This document shows, piece by piece, positions 2,173 through 50,640 of a stretch of DNA of 64,000 nucleotides. Under the pieces are notes generated by a model. It was not told where the DNA came from. It saw only the letters and a program-made list of their open reading frames with translations, and ran no database searches. This stretch comes from Sipunculus nudus (taxonomy: Eukaryota; Annelida; Sipuncula; Golfingiida; Sipunculidae): the NCBI GenBank assembly GCA_026874595.1, contig CM049306.1, positions 21,445,019 to 21,509,018 of the forward strand. Direction: 5' to 3'. A program made the position numbers and the translations under genes. Every line of letters begins with the position of its first letter. Position 1 is the first letter of the stretch.

Positions 2173-2932
2173 TGTGTCGGAACCAAATAACAACAGATCA
2201 CGTAATCCTGACGAGCACAATATTGTTACGGAGAAAAAAAAATATCAGATTCCGCAACACAAGGCAGCGGGAAAAGTTTAGAGGAATGAATAAAGAAGTC
2301 AGTGGTTTTTTGTTAACAAATAATTATAATTTATTCTAAGAACAATCCTAACATTACAATACCCTAAAACAATACAATTACACAGTATAAAACAATAATA
2401 AGAAATGTACATCACCAGAGTGTCCGGACCCTAGGCTTTAACATAAGTAATACACGTAAACAGTTCAAATAAATCTTCTCAGAGAATAGTCCGATTTAAT
2501 CTCGAAATCAATCTGTTGTAATCCAAAACAGAAGTTCTGGTAATAATCCCATGGGCAACATGAAGACAGTTTGTATATAAAGTCTGTTGTAAGTTCTGCA
2601 ATTATCGAAAAGGTGCAAAAACACGGACTAGAGAGTCACAATCTTTCGTGTCCGCTGGTATTTTTCTCTCCGCCGGCTCTAAATATAGCCCCCATTTATA
2701 TAGCTTTTTTTACACGTAGTCCGGAAACTTCTATATTCAGGAACATTCCAACACAACAATACACGTGCGACACTGCGCCTGAACAGACCCGAACCATCTA
2801 GAACACAAAGAACGCTGTGTCTCCACGTGTCACACTTCACACGCAAGCCAGAGCCCTATAAGCGCGGCTCCCATAGCAACAAACAGGACCTGCGCCCAAT
2901 ACGTTTCAGAATGTGAACGGATACATGTAACA
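2173..2932 (-). mobile_element. Solo LTR of the window's gypsy family, copy A
   Basis: On the minus strand it starts TGTTACATGTAT and ends GGTTCCGACACA. It shares the U5-side block (GAAGTCAGTGGTTTTTTG on the plus strand near 2298) with the LTRs at 15028, 16807, 40935 and 49871. The flanking bases are ATAG on both sides (2169-2172 and 2933-2936), a 4-bp target duplication that fixes the ends. A TATATAAAT-like box lies near 2693-2703 and a TTTATT (minus-strand AATAAA) near 2330. No internal coding sequence is attached, so this is a solo LTR left by LTR-LTR recombination. Confidence 0.9.
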
Positions 2933-15027: not shown

Positions 15028-15816
15028 TGTTACGGAACCTAATATAAACAGATCAAATATGCGTGATGAACACAAATTTTGTAATGGAGATGAAAAAATC
15101 AGATTCTGTAACACTAGGCAGCGTGAAATGTATAGGGGAATGAATAAAGAAGTCAGTGGTTTTTTGTTAACAAATAACTATAATTTATTCTTAAAACATC
15201 CTTAACATTACAATACACTAAATCAATACAATAATACAGTAAAACAACGGAATAACAACAAAACAATACAATCACAAAATAAAATTAACAATGTGCACAG
15301 TACCTGGATACCACCACCGTCACAACGATAAGTTCTTTAAAATGGATAAAAAGTCCACACCAATCCTCTCGAAGAATAACATTCCAATGTAAAGCTCTTG
15401 TAACAATCCAGAAAGTAACTTGAATCCAGAATCCCTGAAATTACTGGATAATCGGACAGGTCCCACAAACTGACATACACACGTCTGTGTCCGCTTGAAT
15501 CTTCTCACCCTTCCCTCGGCTCTAAAACACAGCCCCCTATTTATAACTTCTTGCTCCAAGCCGATAATTATCCACTTCTCGAACAGTCTAAGGATCTAAC
15601 ATAATACACAGTAAACACGCGTTACAGGAATCATCTAGAAGAACATCGCTGTGCCTCGACATACCCGGGTCCACACGTGAGCTCGGCCAGGGGAGAAAGC
15701 CCCAAGCTAGCATGACAACGAGAGTTCAACCAGTACGGATTAAACAAAAAGTGCAACAAGCGGCCCGGCGAGGGCGCCCCAACACAAGTTACACAATAAA
15801 AAGAGCACCTGTAACA
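15028..15816 (-). mobile_element. Solo LTR, copy B
   Basis: On the minus strand it runs TGTTACAGGTGC to GGTTCCGTAACA, with TG and CA ends. ATAA flanks both sides (15024-15027 and 15817-15820), consistent with a 4-bp target duplication. A TATAAATA box lies at 15538-15545 (minus), about 350 bp upstream of an AATAAA at 15184-15189 (minus). These are the promoter and polyadenylation signals expected in an LTR. It is the cleanest LTR copy here. No gag or pol is attached. Confidence 0.9.
15538..15545 (-). promoter_or_regulatory. TATA box of LTR copy B
   Basis: TATAAATA on the minus strand, followed by GGGGGC; the block is conserved in the other LTR copies. Confidence 0.6.
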
Positions 15817-16262
15817 ATAAATAAATACTTCATTAAGATAATCAAATACACATTTACATATGTTAATTCATCCTTCTGATACGAGGTCTTGTAAACATTC
15901 GAGATTAATTTTCTCGATCGGGGTTTCTTTATTTCAGATTTTTGTTTATTCCTTCACTCGGAATTTATTATTTTAAAGTCAAATCGGGAAACAATCGTAT
16001 TGTGAAGGGTGTTTATTACCGGACGGACGATGTCCTATTGAAAAATTATTTGTTGATTGTTTTAGTATATCAAGTTAAAATATCTTAACATTTCTGTAGA
16101 CATATTCGGGGAAACTTCAGATCTACAAGTGCTGCCTCGTTTCTGAATATTTTCTAAGTAAAATATTCTGGCCCTTTAACAGCCATTGAAGCTGGCTTTA
16201 ATTCTGAAAGAGTGGGATTATTAAGTGCCTTACCTTTTAAAATCTGCTATTCACCTGCCTTA

Positions 16263-16657
16263 AGCTGTGTTTCCATTCATCCGTAAATTTCGTACGTCTC
16301 GTACGCAAAAAATCGGATCCCTCTTTTTAAGATGAACTGTTTCTATATGTCCGTTTTAACGTGCTCCGCAAAAACGGACAGCATCGAAACGGATCGGTGA
16401 GCGATTCATCCGTTTTACGGATGGCAAAAATGCCTACATTCCCCAACAGTGCCCCGGCGCCAGATGTGATGATCGACACATATTAACCTTTTTCCTGCCT
16501 GTCGTCCTTGCAGTTTCAAAAGATATATATATACGTTAAAGGGTATCCGCAAGAAAAACGTACGTACATATGGAAACAGTTTTTGCGGACTGCGCACTAT
16601 AGAACGTACGTCCGTCTTTTGCGGATACGTTTTTTGCGGATACATGGAAACACAGCT
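16263..16657. mobile_element. MITE with TTA target duplications (Harbinger-like)
   Basis: The ends read AGCTGTGTTTCCAT (16263-16276) and its exact complement at 16644-16657. TTA flanks both sides (16260-16262 and 16658-16660). A 3-bp TWA duplication is the hallmark of PIF/Harbinger. The subterminal parts repeat ATCCG, CGGAT and CGTACG motifs in both orientations. With 395 bp and no transposase, it is non-autonomous. The AGCTG start resembles that of the Harbinger element at 38116. Confidence 0.85.
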
Positions 16658-16806
16658 TTATGTGTATTAATTACACTGTGTACATATTAAATAACTATAT
16701 TTTTTCAACTCTCTGTGACAAATGTATGGGCTTGTTTATCTACAAGCTGTTGCATATACGCTTAACGTTTAATTAGTATTGATTAAGAAAAAGCGATAGG
16801 GCACCT

Positions 16807-16846
16807 TGTTACATCTGTGTATCCTCTGTATCTGAAAAAATAGGCT

Positions 16847-16903
<57 letters not shown>

Positions 16904-17848
16904 GGGCGTCAATTGCTATGCCGTGTATAGACACAGCGCTCGGTGTAATCCGTACTTGGTGAACCCTGGCGTGTAGAAACACAGCGCTCGTGCTAATCTT
17001 GAATTTTCTGGGCTATTCGCGCTCTATGAGCGCGTGTCTTGTATTGTTCTTTGGGTGTATGTGTGTATTATTTGTTGTTGTTTTCTTTGGATTGTTCGTG
17101 AAAGAGAAGTTTCTAGGCTTTGGGGTGAGAAGCTATACATCAGGGGCTGTGTTTAGAGCCCAGGGAGGAGAGAGAGAAATATTCCAGTGAACACAGCGAT
17201 GTTCTTCTAGATGATTCCTGTAACGCGTGTTTACTGTGTATTATGTCAGATCCTTTAGACTGTTTGAGAAGTGGAAAATTCTAGGCTTGTGGTTAGAAGT
17301 TATAAGTAGGGGGCTGTGTTTTAAACCGAGAGAGAGGTGAGAAGATTCCGGCGGGCACAGACGTGTGTATGTCAGTTTGTTGGACCTGTCCGATTATCCA
17401 GTAATTTCATGGATTCTACTATTACTAACTCTATACAATTTAATGCTGCCTGCATCAGGTTTACTTTCTGGATTGTTACAAGAGCTTTACATTGGCTTGT
17501 TATTCTCCGAGAGGATTGGTGTGGACTTGTCATCCGGCATATACATTTAAAAGGACTTATCGTTGTGACGATGGTTGTATCCAGGTACTATGCATATTGT
17601 TGATTTTACTGTGAAATTGTACTGATTTACTGTTATACTGTTTTTATACTGTGTAATTGTATTAATTTAGTGTATTGTAATGTTAGGGTTGTTTGTTATT
17701 TGTTAACAAAAAAAACACTGACTTCTTTATTCATTGCTCTAGACATTTCACGCTGCCTAGTTTTACAGAATCTGATTTATATTTATCTACGTAACAAAAT
17801 TTATGCCCGTCACGACTACGTGATTTGTTGTTATTAGGTTCCGTAACA
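16807..17848 (+). mobile_element. Chimeric LTR, copy C
   Basis: Starts TGTTACATCTGTG and ends GGTTCCGTAACA, but is about 250 bp longer than the other LTRs. Positions 16905-17190 follow copy D (TAATCCGTAC, GCGCTCTATGAGCGCG, TTTAGAGCCC). From about 17192 the sequence follows copy B (CACAGCGATGTTCTTCTAG). Two promoter-like modules therefore lie in tandem, near 17132 and 17301. The AATAAA block present in other copies is deleted near 17690. The flanks (ACCT and TTTT) do not match. A CT/TA microsatellite sits inside. Confidence 0.8.
16848..16903. repeat. (CT)n(TA)n microsatellite
   Basis: About 16 CT units followed by about 11 TA units. Confidence 0.97.
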
Positions 17849-38562: not shown

Positions 38563-39136
38563 ATGAATCGCACAGATGTTGCAACGCCCTACCTCCTGCT
38601 TCTTGGCGAATCCCTACTTTTAGCAGGTGTTGCATTTATTTACGTTACCAGGAGTGAAGAGAAAAAGAAGAAGAATCAAGTATTAAAGACGCTTCTGAGC
38701 AAGGCCTTGGCTTATTCCCAAGCCATAATATGGCCAGTACGAGAGGCTAATGGCAAAGCTGGCCAGGGAGGATTCGCCAGGTTTCAAAAACTTTCAGCGT
38801 GTGGATCCTGACCTTATTCAGGAGCTACTTAACCGTGTGGGATCGAGGATCGAGAAGTAGGACACCTTCATGCGCAAAGCCCTCGAACCAGGATTACGGC
38901 TTGCGTTGACGTTACATTACCTGGCAAAACGGGATCCTTACAAGAGTATTGAGTACGGCTTCCGCGTGTTGAACAATGCCATTTCTACTATATTCCCAGA
39001 AACTTGCGAAGCCATCATAGCGGAGTTAGCGGAGGAGGTTCTCGATTATCCAAATTTACCTGAAGAGTGGATGGTGATGAGCCTGAACTTCTCCGGGCAG
39101 TGGAACTTTCACAACACTATTGGGGCCTTGGATATA
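38563..39136 (+). pseudogene. Harbinger (HARBI1-type) transposase, N-terminal part
   Basis: A DDE nuclease that would cut and paste the element. From the ATG at 38563 the first residues include a hydrophobic run (YLLLLGESLLLAGVAFIYV), then KKKK. A +1 frameshift near 38730 leads into QYERLMAKLARED, FKNFQRVDPDLIQELL, an in-frame TAG (38858-38860), TFMRKALEPGLRLALTLHYL, then SIEYGFRVLNNAIS and WNFHNTIGALD. This is the order of HARBI1-type proteins up to the GALD motif, whose Asp (39131-39133) is the first catalytic residue. The second Asp and the Glu are gone: the next bases are the ACTCGG array. The piece is dead and cannot act as a transposase. Myb-like partner not found. Confidence 0.8.
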
Positions 39137-39444
39137 ACTCGACATACACTCGGCACTACTCCTTGGGCAATCGGACTTAATCGTCGGAGCTCGGTTTAAC
39201 TCTTACTGAGCTCGGCTCAATAAGACGTTAACTCGCAGGAAACTCGTACTCATGTCGGCTTCAATTCATACGCAACTCCGAAATACTCGGTGTGACTCGG
39301 GACCTAACGGGCGTTACTCGGCTGAGCTCGGGATAACTCGGCTTTTTATTCGAGACCGCGAGCAACGCCGATCTGTGCCGAGTGAGTCCCGAGTGACTCC
39401 GAGCTCCATCCGAGGGCCCCACGAATCACGTCGATCTCTTAACT

Positions 39445-40934: not shown

Positions 40935-41773
40935 TATTACGAAACCTAAAACAATAGATCACCTAGTCGTGACGAGCATAAATTTTGTTACAAAGATAAA
41001 TAAAATCAGACCCTGTAACACTAGGCAGCGTAAAATGCAAAAGGGAATGAATAAAGAAGTCAGTGTTTTTTTTAACACATAATTTTAATTTATTCTTTAA
41101 ACAACCCTAATATTACAATACACAAAATCAATACAATTACACAGTATAACAACAGTATAAAGTAAATCAGTACAATTACACAGTATAATAAATAAAGTGT
41201 ACATTACCAGTGTGTCCGGATCCTAGGATTTTCTGGATACCATCACCGTCACAGCTCAACAAGTCCTTTAAAACATATAATCCAGATGAACAGTTCACGT
41301 AAATTTTCTCAGAGAATAATAGTCCAATTTTATTCTGAAATCAATCTGTTGTAATCCAAAAGTGAAGTTCTGGTAATAGTCCCAAAGGCAACCTGAAGAC
41401 TATATAAAATCCATTACAAATTTCGAAGAAAATCTATAAATTCTGCAATTATCGTCCACAAACTGACTCACACTCTTCCGTGTCCGCTGGAATTTTTCTC
41501 TCTCCCCCTTCGGCTCTAAACACAGCCCCTTTTTATAACTTTTTACCTCAAGCCCTCAAACTTTCAACTTTCACGAACAATCTTAAGAACACAACAAGAC
41601 ACACGCGCTCATAGAGCGCGAACAGCCAAGAAAATTCCAGATTAGCACGAACGTGTCTTTACACGCCAGGTCAACCAGTACGGATTACACCGAGCGCTGT
41701 GTCTCTACACGCCATGGCAGCGCCCAGGGCTAGAGGCTAACACGAATCACAATGTCAACAGACACCTGTAACA
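40935..41773 (-). mobile_element. Solo LTR, copy D
   Basis: On the minus strand it runs TGTTACAGGTGTCTG to GGTTTCGTAATA, with the right-hand CA mutated to TA. CAGT flanks both sides (40931-40934 and 41774-41777), a 4-bp target duplication. A TATAAAAAG box lies near 41533-41541 and AATAAA (minus) near 41090. It is a distinct U3 subtype, with GCGCTCTATGAGCGCG, which also supplies the first half of copy C and resembles the 5' LTR fragment at 45309. No internal coding sequence. Confidence 0.88.
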
Positions 41774-45308: not shown

Positions 45309-45425
45309 TGTTACAGATGTCTGTTACATGTGTTTTTGACACTTGATTTGTGTGGCGCGGGCGTGGCTCGTTGCTGTAGTAACCTCGCCTGGCCGGGTGT
45401 TGCAAGCTCGGTGTAATCCGCATTG
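45309..45425 (+). mobile_element. 5' LTR remnant
   Basis: TGTTACAGATGTCTGTTACA matches the start of copy D. CTCGGTGTAATCCG near 45408 matches its U3. The sequence then jumps to mid-gag, so most of the LTR, the PBS and the gag start are lost. Confidence 0.65.
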
Positions 45426-45439
45426 GTTGAGAAATTTAT

Positions 45440-46197
45440 ACAGAGCTCTCAGTAGAAGCTGCTGCTGACTATGACCTGGTTAAAGGGTAATCCTAAAAGG
45501 TTATGAGTAAGTTCCAGAGGCTTACCTCCAGAAATTCAGAAATTGGGAAAAGCGCCAAGAACAGACCTACGTCGAATTTGCTAGGACAAAAGAGCACTTA
45601 TGTGATCGCTGGTGTAGTTCTAAAAATGTAATGAACGATTATGACAATTTGCGCCAGTTGATTTTGCTTGAAGAATTTAAGCACTGTATTAACGCAGTTG
45701 TTAAAACTTTTCTTGATGAGAAAAGTCCTGAAACACTTTACATTGTTGCTCAGTTAGCTGATGATTATTCATTAACACACAAAATATCCTTTACTAGGAA
45801 ATCAAACCAGTCATTCACAAACAAGGATGTAAATCAGTATGGTCAAAAGAAGTTTAAACCGCAGTCACCCAGTACTAGTAGTCCTGATAGTTCAACAAAG
45901 TCCATTGCTACACCTCAGCCCACGTCCACGGTGTCAAAGTCCAACAAAGACCAGTCATTTGCGAAGAAAATCTGTAATTACTGCAAGAAGGAAGGTCATC
46001 TAATATCTGACTGCTGGAAACTTGTGAATAAACCAAATAGCAAACCTTCTGGTTTTGATTCAAAATCGATGCATAGCATAGTACAAGAGCCAGGCTCTTT
46101 TCATGTAAATAAGTGGTACAACTCCTTTATTGACTCTAATAAAGGGTTGATGCTACGGAGGCCCACGTGCCGTCTGAATCCAAAGAAGAATCCGTAG
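45440..46197 (+). pseudogene. Retrotransposon gag with CCHC knuckle
   Basis: Structural protein that would form the particle and bind RNA. The first part, in shifted frames with an in-frame TAA near 45508, contains GYE-VPEAYLQKF and FRNWEKRQEQTYVEFARTK, typical of the SCAN-like capsid region of these elements. The longest open piece (45631-46197, 188 codons) begins inside the capsid region. A basic, Ser/Pro/Thr-rich linker follows, then a zinc knuckle CNYCKKEGHLISDC (CX2CX4HX4C) at 45973-46014. The N-terminal capsid half is deleted. 46200-46450 continues as a broken tail with repeated DSCEE-type acidic units. Confidence 0.75.
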
Positions 46198-46509
46198 CTT
46201 GCGGGGTAAATACCTCAGTTGATTCCTGCTAGGAATTTAATAAGGCTAGGTCCTTTCAAGACTCCTGTGAGGAGTATTCTCTAAATAAGGCTAAGTACAT
46301 TTATGACTCTTGCGAGAGTATTTCAAATGAGGCCAGGCCCTCTTATGACAAACAGAAGTTTGTTTCTGCTGAGGAAAATTCCTCTGTTGACTCCCATGAG
46401 GAGTTTGATTGTAATCAGAATGCAGATTCCTTTAAAGACTCTGAAAAGAGTCTATGACTGACACTGTCAATGTCAGTTCTTTGTTTGACGAAGCAGAGTT
46501 AGTAGATTC

Positions 46510-46900
46510 CTCTCCTGACTCTGAAATGGAGTTATTTGAGCCATTCATACATGATGGTTTTGATCACTTTCAAGTGATTTTTTTCAGACTGTACCCCTAT
46601 AAGAATTTTGAGGGACACTCTCAGGCCAGATTCTCACGTTGGCAAACACTTTGCCATTTTATAATAGGTCCTTTACTGGTGCACATGCACTTGTTAATGG
46701 TGTGAAGCACACTTCAGTTCAGCTTCACAGTATACTTTTAAAGTCAGATTTGATTTCTGGGAATATTACTGTGGGCATTAGAACTACTTTACCTTCTAAG
46801 GAAATTCAGTTGCTACTAGGCAATGATGTTGCAGGTGACAGGGTAAAGCCTGTACCAATAGTGACAGAAAAGCCGTCACTTGATCAGGACACTAATCCGG
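46510..46900 (+). pseudogene. Retrotransposon aspartic protease
   Basis: Would cleave the gag-pol polyprotein. FEPFIHDGF (46529-46555), IRILRDT (46599-46619) and, in another frame, HALVNGVK, LLKSDLISG, VGIRTTLPSKE and LLGNDVAGDRV (up to about 46845) fit the order of proteases from this group. The catalytic DTG motif reads D-T-L (46614-46622), and a frameshift follows before 46639. It would be inactive even if in frame. Downstream the frame stays open to 47217 and leads into integrase. Confidence 0.7.
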
Positions 46901-47029
46901 AAAGTCAAGAAATTCCGTGTTTGTATCCTTCATGTGCTGTAACTAAATCTATGACCAAGAAAAACACACATGAGGAAAATGGTCCAGATAATAACACTCT
47001 GGGAGCCACTAGTGACTCGTCTAACGCCT

Positions 47030-48187
47030 CGCCCGTACAGGATGCAGCATTTTCAAGGTCAGAGCTTATCGCGGAACAGCATAAATGGCGACCATCTGAT
47101 GTATGCGCTGATGATGAGTGGGCCATCAAACATGAAATAGTAATGCCCAAAAGCTTTCGCAATGAAATTCTAAGCATGGCACATGCGGCTCCTTTAGGCA
47201 TTAATAAAACTTTTTAGAAAGTTAGTACACACTTCTATTGGCCTAACCTCAGGAAAGATGTTGTACAATATTGTAAATCATGCCATACATACCAGATGGT
47301 AGGCAAGCCCAATCAGAATCCTCCTAAGGCCCCACTTATGCCTATTCATGCTTTCGAGGAACTATTCAGTAGGATTATTGTTGATTATGTTGGACCACTG
47401 CCAAAATCTAAATCTGGACATGAATACTTGCTGACAATTATGTGCGCATCTACCAGGTTCCCTGAGGCAATACCATTGCGCAAAATTAATGCCAACAGTG
47501 TTGTCAAAGCTCTGACCAAGTTTATTTACAACGTTTGGATTACCAAAATCCGTCAGGTCTGACCAAGGGTCTAATTTTATGTCTGGCTTATTCCAGCGAG
47601 TTAGGTATAAAACAGTACAGCTCTTCGCCATACCACCATGGAAGTCAGGGCGCCCTCGAGCGTTTTCACCAGACATTAAAAAACATGATTAGGACCTATT
47701 GCTGTGACACACAGAAAGACTGGGATGAAGGAATCCACCTATAGCTGTTTGCTCTCAGAGAATCCTTTCAAGATTCCTTGAATTTCAGTTCCTATGAACA
47801 AGTTTTTGGACACTCAGTTCGAAGTCCATTAAAACTGCTTTAAGAAAAACTCTTGTGTGAAAATCCTGATTCTCTTAGTTTACTGCAGTATGTCTCAGAC
47901 TTTTGCACTAAACTACACAATGTTTGTGAGATTGCAAAGTCAAATCTAAAATCTGCACAAAGTAAAATGAAAAGAAAGTATGCCAAGCACAGTGTAAGTA
48001 GGACGTTTGAGCCTGGTGAAAAGGTCCTTGATTAACTTCCCATTCCTGGCAGACTTCTGCAAGCTAGGTATTTTGGTCCTTAGATTGTTGACAAGAAAGT
48101 CAGTGATTTAAATTACATACTGTTGACACCAGATAGGCTTAAGAAGAAACAACTGTGTCATGTTAACATGTTTTAACCATATTATGA
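47030..48187 (+). pseudogene. Retrotransposon integrase
   Basis: Would insert the cDNA into the host chromosome. An upstream segment has KWRPSDVCADDEW. The N-terminal zinc-binding domain is damaged (AHAAPLGINKTF lacks the usual GH), a TAG at 47215-47217 interrupts it, and CKSCH survives. The DDE core has Asp in IIVDYVG (47383-47385), Asp in RSDQGSNF (47561-47563) after a frameshift, and Glu in GALERFHQ (47658-47660). All three catalytic residues are present across frames. The C-terminal part reads YFGP-IVDKK, YILLTPDRLKK and CHVNM, a GPY/F-type module with a stop at the aromatic position. It lies upstream of RT. Confidence 0.8.
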
Positions 48188-48189
48188 CA

Positions 48190-48330
48190 GAAATAGCGCA
48201 TCAGATGTTGTACATAATGTTACTGCTGTAAATTGTTTAAACACTGACCTGACCCAGTTAAAGTAGATACTGATTGTAAGTGTGATGTAGACATTCAGTG
48301 TCGAGCAGTGCCACTAAAAATCTATGACGT
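48190..48330. other. Spacer between integrase and RT
   Basis: About 140 bp linking the end of integrase to RT. No LTR or terminal motif is present, so the order is not explained by a junction of two elements here. Confidence 0.55.
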
Positions 48331-49290
48331 GCTTAACAACCTGGATGCCAAATTATCCCACCTTACCGCACATCAACAACAAGACCTCAAGAACCTGCTG
48401 CGGAATTATGAACATTTCTTTAGTGACATTCCAACGCGAACAAGCATGTTGAACCATGACGTCGATGTTGGCGAGGCAAGCGCAGTCAAGCAGCATCCGT
48501 ATAGACTGAATCCAGTTATCTACAGGATGAGATTCAATATTTGCTGGACAATGATTTTATTGAACCGAGTAACAGTAACTGTAGTTCACCATGTATTCTT
48601 GTGCCAAAACCTGATGGAAGTTACCGTATGTGCACAGATGATCGAAAACTGAACTCTGTCACCAAGACTAACACTTTCCCGATTCCGAGGATTGATGATT
48701 GTATTGATAGAGTCGGTAGCTCCAGATACGGCTCCAAGTTTGATTTGTTAAAAGGATTCTGGCAAGATCAGCTAACAGAACGAGCGAAAGAAGTGTCCGC
48801 ATTTGTGACGCCTTAAGGACTGTACCAGTATAAAGTTATGCCGTTTGGCATGAAAAACTCGCCAGCCACGTTCCAGCGCCTTAAGGACTGTACCAGTATA
48901 AAGTTATGCCGTTTGGCATGAAAAACTCGCCAGCCATGTGGTTGTCAAGGACATTCAGGACTGCGACGCATATATTGATGACCGCAACGTGTACAGCGAC
49001 ACCTGGGAGAAACATCTGCAAATTCTTCGCGACCTCTTCGAAAGACTCAGTGAAGCACGTCTTATCGTCAACTTAGTTAAATCTGAGTTTTGTCATGCAC
49101 AAGTAACAATTTTGGGTCATCTTGTAGGGCAGGGTCAGGTAAAACCTGTTGATGCTAAGATAAGTGCTATTTCTGCATTTCCTAGACCAGAGAACAAAAA
49201 GCAAATAATGCGTTTCTTGGTATGGTTGGATACTACAGGAAGTTTTGTCCAAATTTTTCTGCTGTAGCTGAACCTTTGACTAATGTGTTG
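48330..49290 (+). pseudogene. Retrotransposon reverse transcriptase
   Basis: Copies the RNA to DNA. HLTAHQQQDLKNLLRNY and HPYRLNP open the domain. After a frameshift near 48525 come NCSSPCILVPKPDGSYRMC (48562-48625), KFDLLKGFW with the first catalytic Asp (48742-48744), a stop at 48814-48816, VMPFGMKNSPATF, and AYIDD with the catalytic pair (48977-48982), then FLVWLD with a frameshift near 49218. A tandem duplication (48810-48868 copied at 48878-48936, offset 68 bp) shifts the frame between the PFGMKNSPATF and YIDD motifs. The domain is dead. Confidence 0.82.
48810..48936 (+). repeat. Tandem duplication within RT, 68-bp offset
   Basis: 59 bases beginning GCCTTAAGGACTGTACCAGT occur at 48810 and again at 48878, without mismatch to the end of the block. 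The identity implies a recent event. Confidence 0.95.
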
Positions 49291-49765
49291 AAGAAGAAAC
49301 AAAAGTTTGTATGGAACGTTCAGTGTGAAAATGCATTTCAGAATTTGAAAGCAATTCTGCAAAGTTCACCAGTTTTGGTAACTCCAGACTTTTCTGAACC
49401 TGTTAAATTAGCTGTAGATACTAGTGATAGTGCTGGTGGTGCTATGTTGTTACAAGAAGGCAATAATGACATAGATTATCCAATTGACTATTTTTCAAGA
49501 AAGTTTAATGCAAACCAGAAAAACTACTCCACTATTGAAAAAGAATGTTTGGCTTTGATTTTGGCATTGCAACATTTTGAAATTTATGCTTCATCAATCA
49601 AGCCTATCATTGTCTCCAGTGATCACAATCCCCTCACGTTCATGAACAAGTTGAAGTGTAAAAATCAAAGATTGTTGCGATAGAGTTTGTTCCTACAAGA
49701 TCACAACCTTGAAATCAAACACATTAAAGGGAAAGACATTGTACTTGCTGATTGCTAATCGAGAT
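49222..49765 (+). pseudogene. RT connection and RNase H domain
   Basis: Degrades the RNA strand of the hybrid. The 153-codon open frame runs from VGYYRKFCPNF through FVWNVQCENAFQNLKAIL to the RNase H catalytic residues: Asp in KLAVDTSDS (49417-49419), Glu in IEKECLALILAL (49543-49545) and Asp in VSSDHNPL (49621-49623). A TAG at 49681 breaks the last part, which continues as QDHNLEIKHIKGKD. After that there is only about 100 bp to the polypurine tract and no second integrase. The best preserved domain of the element. Confidence 0.82.
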
Positions 49766-49858
49766 GTTTATGAAATGTTGATGATTTTTGAGATGTTGTA
49801 AAAATTTAGTGATTGTGATCGCAAAAAGAAAGTTTAGAGAAAACTTTCTTTTTTCTTA

Positions 49859-49870
49859 CAGGAGGGGGAG
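49859..49870 (+). promoter_or_regulatory. Polypurine tract
   Basis: CAGGAGGGGGAG lies immediately before the 3' LTR, where plus-strand DNA synthesis would be primed. It confirms the 3' LTR start. Confidence 0.8.
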
Positions 49871-50640
49871 TTTTACAGGTGCCCCTTTTTATTGTGTGCA
49901 GCGGTCTTACAGATGATTGTTTTATTATGATTTATTATGCCGGGCCGGGCTGGCCAACGTGTGAACCCTGACACGGCGTTCCCGTTCTAGTATGTTCTTT
50001 GAGCGTGTGTACTGTGTATTATGGATTGTTCGTGAAAGGGAATTTTCTAGAGTTTTCGGAGCAAAGGTTATAAATTTAGACCGTGTTTTAGAGCCGGGAG
50101 AGAGGTGAGAGAATATTCCAGCGGACACAGAAGCGTGTAAGTCAGTTCGTGGGACCTATTCCGATAAGTGCGGCACGTATAGATTCTCTTCAGATTTTCT
50201 TCTATATTTGTGACGAATCTTATTTGGTCTTCAGTTTACTTTCGGTATTGTTACAAGAGCTTTACATAGGACTGTTATTCTCCGAGAGAATTTGTGTGAA
50301 CTGTTCGTCCGGTTTATACATTTTAAAGGACTAATCGCTGTGACAGTGGTGGTATCCAGGTACTGAGCACTTTGTTTTTTTTACTGTGTGATTGAATTGA
50401 TTTGTTGTTATACTGCTGTTATACTGTGTAATGATATTGATTTAGTGTATTGTAATGTTAGGGTTGTTTTAAGAATAAATTATAATTATTTGTAAACAAA
50501 AAAAAAAACACTGACTTCTTTATTCCTTCCCCCAGACATTTCCCGCTGCCTAGTGTTACAGAATTTGATTTTTTTTATATCCTTGACAAAATTTATGTTC
50601 ATCACGCATACGTGATCTGTTGATATTAGTTTCCGTAACA
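49871..50640 (+). mobile_element. 3' LTR
   Basis: TTTTACAGGTGCCCC (expected TGTTACAGG) to TTTCCGTAACA. TATAAAT lies at 50069-50075 and AATAAA at 50474-50479. GAAGTCAGTGTTTTT-type U5 sequence (50498-50522) is shared with the other LTRs. It differs from the 5' remnant, whose U3 is closer to copy D. Confidence 0.9.

Follow-up and report, generated by a model that had tools for sequence, protein, structure and literature searches.

Gypsy-type proteins in copia-type domain order in a multi-copy, very probably Gmr1-like, LTR retrotransposon family

The stretch 45309-50640 (forward strand) of a 64,000-nucleotide region of contig CM049306.1, hereafter the window, is one broken long terminal repeat (LTR) retrotransposon, read as gag - protease-like region - integrase (IN) - reverse transcriptase (RT) - RNase H (RH) - polypurine tract - 3' LTR. 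Its Ty3/gypsy-type proteins are arranged in Ty1/copia order, as the initial annotation of the window had proposed, both the domain types and their order being borne out by Pfam and PDB matches. The IN-before-RT order is a trait of the multi-copy family and not a local accident, since the sampled sister copies share it. Because this order is common to the sampled copies and the gag is of SCAN type, the element very probably belongs, as a decayed member, to a multi-copy family of Gmr1-like LTR retrotransposons.

Layout and state of the element

Eight open pieces of the element were scanned with Pfam profiles. Five of them have matches, which follow each other along the element as SCAN and a zinc knuckle below cut-off (gag), Integrase_H2C2, RVT_1 (twice) and RT_RNaseH_2 (Table 1). 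The three pieces with no Pfam match include the protease-like piece and the piece carrying the IN glutamate (E); a stretch resembling the protease-like region is also found in family copies L027 and L035. Gypsy-type RT, RNase H and H2C2 integrase are all present. The IN core is based on a PDB match (foamy virus (PFV) integrase, 1.3e-10, followed by Ty3, 9.7e-5) and on motifs read by eye, and its C-terminal module, also read by eye, contains what we take to be a GPY/F-like motif. Compared with PDB, the gag gave no SCAN entry at E 1 and weak zinc-knuckle matches only.

Among PDB entries, RNase H is closest to Ty3, and IN is closest to foamy virus, with Ty3 second; thus the proteins are of gypsy type and not of copia type. 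Only the domain order would speak for a copia element. Such an element is hardly conceivable here in view of the RVT_1, Integrase_H2C2 and RT_RNaseH matches, of the PDB relatives and of the lack of any copia-type RT match at E 0.01.

The catalytic residues of IN (D 47383, D 47561 and E 47658) lie upstream of the RT motif YIDD, whose first D is at 48977, and by eye IN can be followed beyond its C-terminal module into the N-terminal stretch of RT. Past the end of RNase H, near 49758, come the polypurine tract and the LTR, with no space for a canonical downstream IN. On both points the initial annotation was correct.

The copy is interrupted by stops and frameshifts and its pieces lie in different frames; the spacing of the catalytic codons of IN (D-D 178 nt, D-E 97 nt) is in neither case a multiple of 3. 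The LTR-element hallmarks found in the copy are the 3' LTR and the polypurine tract, the 5' LTR being present as a remnant only; the remainder of the 5' LTR and the start of gag were not seen in 45309-50640. Over ~120 nt, the remnant resembles LTR C, one of the related LTRs A to D of the window (score 66, against at most 55 in 200 shuffles), and LTR A (57, against at most 45 in 200 shuffles); it has no likeness to LTRs B and D. As the remnant cannot be aligned to the 3' LTR, an age estimate from the LTR pair is not usable. No matching target-site duplication was seen by eye at the element.

The start of the 3' LTR (49871-50020) is of another type than the 5' remnant (45309-45440, similar to LTRs A and C) and is common to L030 and L033. 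One element here carries two U3 types, perhaps through a recombination between subfamilies.

Table 1. Parts of the element and related LTRs of the window (positions of the window)
Feature	Position	Strand	Basis and remarks
5' LTR remnant, start TGTTACAG	45309..45440	+	aligns locally with LTRs A and C of the window
gag, SCAN-type capsid domain	45514..45783	+	PF02023 E 2.2e-12, 47.1 bits (cut-off 27)
gag, CCHC zinc knuckle, motif CNYCKKEGHLISDC	45970..46014	+	PF13696 (E 0.0024) and PF00098 (E 0.0074), neither reaching cut-off
Protease-like region	46612..46870	+	based on position and an LLGND motif; no Pfam match
IN: H2C2 zinc domain, DDE core, C-terminal module	47133..48180	+	PF17921 E 2.1e-9; PDB matches; frames read by eye
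RT, at least two frames, YIDD at 48971-48982	48250..49264	+	two pieces with RVT_1 matches (E 3e-8 and 2e-8)
68-bp tandem duplication within RT	48809..48936	+	Tandem Repeats Finder, 1.9 copies, 100% matches; repeat search agrees
RNase H and end of pol	49312..49758	+	RT_RNaseH_2 PF17919 7.2e-31, PF17917 7.2e-27; PDB Ty3 RT/RNase H 3.6e-18
Polypurine tract AGGAGGGGGAG	49860..49870	+	sequence; directly 5' of the LTR
3' LTR, 770 bp, end CCGTAACA	49871..50640	+	matches window LTRs A, B, C and D
Solo LTR A	15028..15816	-	87% identity to 3' LTR over 700 aligned positions
LTR B, partly rearranged	16807..17848	+	84% to 3' LTR over 630 aligned positions
Solo LTR C	40935..41773	-	83% to 3' LTR over 645 aligned positions
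Partial LTR D (high end is the limit of the alignment only)	2173..2760	-	81% over 552 aligned positions

Domain order across the family

The family was sampled with the RNase H piece of the element in the 1.43-Gb host genome, the best 150 of 6968 first-look candidates being used; the window's own row aside, these matches have 77-85% identity. The family copies sampled are broken, and none at the best 150 RNase H matches was seen to be intact; the longest open frame there, 630 amino acids, is too short for the Pol of such an element.

Thirty family RNase H loci, the window copy included, were examined with 1.5 kb on each side. IN is localized upstream in 25 of these 30 loci and downstream in none (0/30), and an LTR is found downstream in 27. 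With the window copy set aside, upstream IN pieces occur in 24/29 loci and downstream ones, within 1.5 kb, in 0/29. In the canonical gypsy loci described below, IN starts at most ~1.1 kb from RNase H, thus a flank of 1.5 kb would have revealed it.

The best 150 RNase H matches were also crossed with the best 150 IN matches, within 10 kb. These lists hold best-scored matches only, i.e., the pair counts are samples and not totals. Among the matches listed, IN comes first and on the same strand in 26/26 IN-RNase H pairs (window copy included), and none of them has a downstream or opposite-strand IN within 10 kb. The median distance is 2062 nt and 24 of the 26 pairs are within 3.0 kb; the other two are at 3.2 and 6.8 kb, and the pair at 6.8 kb may join two separate copies.

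These counts bear on the question whether IN-before-RT merely reflects a junction, rearranged or nested, that only this copy of an otherwise ordinary gypsy element possesses. The heavy damage to the copy and the mismatch between its 5' remnant and its 3' LTR would fit such a junction. It is nevertheless very improbable, since 24 of 29 other family loci have an upstream IN and none a downstream one within 1.5 kb, 25 of 25 other IN-RNase H pairs have the same order, and IN is continuous by eye through its C-terminal module into the N-terminal stretch of RT. The initial annotation had suggested looking for intact copies with the same order elsewhere in the genome: the order is recovered (25/30 loci, 26/26 pairs), in copies that are broken, and no intact one was seen. 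Its counter-case, IN following RNase H in a family copy, did not occur in the 30 loci or in the 26 pairs, all of broken copies.

For comparison, 15 canonical gypsy loci (L007-L021) were taken from the best 150 Pfam integrase matches of the genome, 3 by rank and 12 by hand for their long open frames. Their RT, RNase H and IN are homologous to those of the family (22-50% identity in aligned pieces). On the contrary, their domain order differs: it is RT-RH-IN in 15/15 of the loci examined, whereas the family has IN upstream of RT. It must be added that several of these loci are near-copies of each other, so that the 15 loci stand for fewer lineages.

The RH tree contains 30 family and 15 canonical rows (floor of 120 aligned residues, 45/45 loci kept). 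One branch splits the 30 family rows from the 15 canonical ones with support 100/99, the bootstrap being not fully settled. In the IN tree, a floor of 80 residues excluded L031, and no match was obtained for L012; 3 family and 14 canonical rows are split at 98/98, with a long-branch warning. In both trees the family falls outside every canonical lineage sampled, and the trees are mutually non-conflicting. A placement of RT and IN in different lineages, which had been put forward as the sign of a rearranged junction, is thus not met with in the RH and IN trees, built from sequences of this genome with no Gmr1 reference among them.

Two arrangements were observed among the gypsy integrase matches of the genome. 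Five equal-scoring matches lie ~6.7 kb apart on one strand at C9:74615841-74642943, the first being canonical locus L016, and this looks like a head-to-tail array. At C12:1555059-1570649, three matches lie ~7.65 kb apart.

Affiliation with the Gmr1 clade

Two traits of the Gmr1 clade are found: (i) IN upstream of RT, in the family; (ii) a SCAN-type capsid domain in gag, in the window copy (PF02023, E 2.2e-12). IN ahead of RT is reported for the Gmr1 clade (PMC6238403, PMC8220671, PMC2774666; here and below, statements on the literature refer to excerpts of the papers). As described in such excerpts, the clade is like the family in its gypsy-type proteins, its upstream IN and its SCAN-type gag. 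Among frog LTR elements, SCAN is present in more than 50% of Gmr elements and in Gmr only (PMC4131045), and the SCAN domain is described as derived from the gag of Gmr1-like elements (PMC4592553, PMC3424704).

As a control, nine canonical loci (L010-L015 and L018-L020) were scanned upstream of RT, in 10 pieces. No SCAN match was obtained in these pieces; Retrotrans_gag or PNMA was matched in 5 of the nine loci, above cut-off in 2 (L018 and L020).

It may also be asked whether the family is a gypsy lineage outside Gmr1, in which IN was relocated independently. The family forms its own branch in the RH and IN trees, which hold no Gmr1 reference, and in a survey of molluscs from 2018 an RT/RNaseH tree distinguishes 16 Gypsy clades as new, their domain order being not stated in the excerpt (PMC6238403); both facts leave room for such a lineage. 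With a SCAN-type gag reported for Gmr1-like elements and no SCAN match in the nine canonical loci, this origin seems quite unlikely, and the Gmr1-like assignment is retained.

Several points weigh against that assignment and against the layout on which it is built: (i) the SCAN evidence comes from the window copy alone; (ii) the SCAN control is modest, a recognisable gag capsid family being found in only 5/9 canonical loci, and for L010 and L012 at least, the scanned pieces may begin past the capsid; (iii) the SCAN fold is common to Ty3 and HIV capsids generally (PMC6525542), thus only the sequence match, and not the fold, points to Gmr1; (iv) zebrafish elements with SCAN at the gag position are described, in the excerpt, without the Gmr1 name (PMC8672886); (v) the RH and IN trees hold sequences of this genome only, so none joins the family to Gmr1; (vi) no IN is found within 1.5 kb upstream in 5/30 family loci (L023, L026, L027, L030 and L040); (vii) the integrase core model rve has no match in the Pfam scan of the open pieces; (viii) the protease is weak, being recognised by position and LLGND motif; (ix) the 5' LTR remnant is not alignable to its own 3' LTR (score 34, shuffle mean 31).

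By analogy with known LTR retrotransposons, an intact Gmr1-like member of the family would be transcribed from its LTR, and the RNA would be translated into Gag, with the SCAN-type capsid, and Pol, with IN ahead of RT and RNase H. Gag would form particles, and the protease would cleave the products apart; RT would copy the RNA, the polypurine tract being used for finishing reverse transcription, and IN would insert the copy. As the protease would separate the domains of Pol, their order need not alter their action.

Surroundings of the element and host range

The five family LTRs of the window have 80-89% pairwise identity over aligned positions, gaps excluded, and no internal piece of the family was found elsewhere in the window. 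LTR A is flanked by a possible 4-bp target duplication, TTAT, which AT-rich DNA could give by chance. LTRs A (-) and B (+), at 15028-17848, are ~1 kb apart and inverted. A minisatellite at 80-1574 has 69-bp units (21.7 copies, 89% matches); as 69 is divisible by 3, the array can be spanned by long open frames. Pfam comparison of ten open frames of the window, one from the element and nine from outside it, gave two weak matches, both below cut-off. One open frame (38861-39196, 112 amino acids) looks by eye like a piece of a Harbinger-type transposase and has no Pfam match at E 0.05. Rfam and tRNA scans of the window found nothing.

Relatives of the element were also looked for in viral contigs: the RH, RT and IN pieces gave 1, 9 and 12 pattern-matching stretches, respectively, none encoding a relative, and a degenerate RT motif gave 0 matches. 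In genome contigs the same motif gave one stretch, L001 (metagenome-assembled genome of Candidatus Desulfolinea nitratireducens), whose open frames of at least 60 amino acids are not RT-like by eye; it was taken as a chance match. Two small contigs of the host assembly, C106 and C110 (L002 and L003), encode IS3-family transposases (E 5.8e-87 and 6.1e-92; C118, C128 and C135 are outside this test). They are probably bacterial contigs, from associated bacteria or contamination.

The unusual IN-before-RT order was reportedly already in print with cod Gmr1 in 2001 and with Goodwin and Poulter in 2002. Gmr1-like elements of cod and of a tunicate are named in PMC8220671, and others are described in pufferfish and kin (PMC11117352) and in frogs (PMC4131045). 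In protostomes, the crustacean elements GyRex4, Gychoro2, GyMaja1 and GyLiva4 were called the first Gmr1-like ones in 2013 (PMC3587641), and LGF3, a Gmr1 family of the annelid Lamellibrachia luymesi, followed in 2021 with bootstrap values of 95, 99 and 100 in three domain trees (PMC8220671). The present family is likened to these crustacean and annelid elements by description only.

The initial annotation had presented the Gmr1-like lineage as an exception described in deuterostomes. Its Gmr1-like reading is supported by the order and the SCAN gag; the limit to deuterostomes is outdated (PMC3587641, PMC8220671), and the widening of the range that it proposed is weak, Gmr1-like elements being already described in crustaceans (2013) and in an annelid (2021).

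Concerning other protostomes, an annelid survey of 2021 counts Gmr1 among five clades spanning several phyla, yet Gmr1 is absent from its own survey results as excerpted (PMC8556966). In molluscs, a survey published in 2018 covered 56 species; its table gives 21 Gypsy clades, none of them named as Gmr1 in the excerpt (PMC6238403), and the excerpt of a 2023 bivalve survey makes no mention of Gmr (PMC10294476). A literature search on Gmr1 and molluscs gave, among the titles listed and with most subscription journals outside its coverage, only the 2018 survey as a title on mollusc retrotransposons; one on SCAN domain, mollusc and retrotransposon gave no title on such an element. The initial annotation took the host to look like a mollusc; a search for the mollusc haemocyanin PF14830 gave 0 matches, but its controls gave none either, so that it says nothing on the host. 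That a multi-copy Gmr1-like family with a SCAN-type capsid is present here in a mollusc, or in another protostome not yet recorded as host, is a tentative proposal, with the chances slightly against it.

Neither the order itself (2001-2002) nor the presence of Gmr1-like elements in protostomes (2013) is new. In one and the same genome, canonical gypsy elements coexist with a multi-copy family in which the gag-protease-IN-RT-RH order is stably kept. If the host is indeed a new protostome one, a phylum would be added to the Gmr1 clade; if it is a mollusc, this would go beyond the mollusc survey of 2018. The SCAN-type gag is also relevant to the origin of the SCAN domain of vertebrate transcription factors: a new protostome host would suggest that this gag predates the vertebrates, in whose transcription factors it was later taken up, or that it has spread between phyla.

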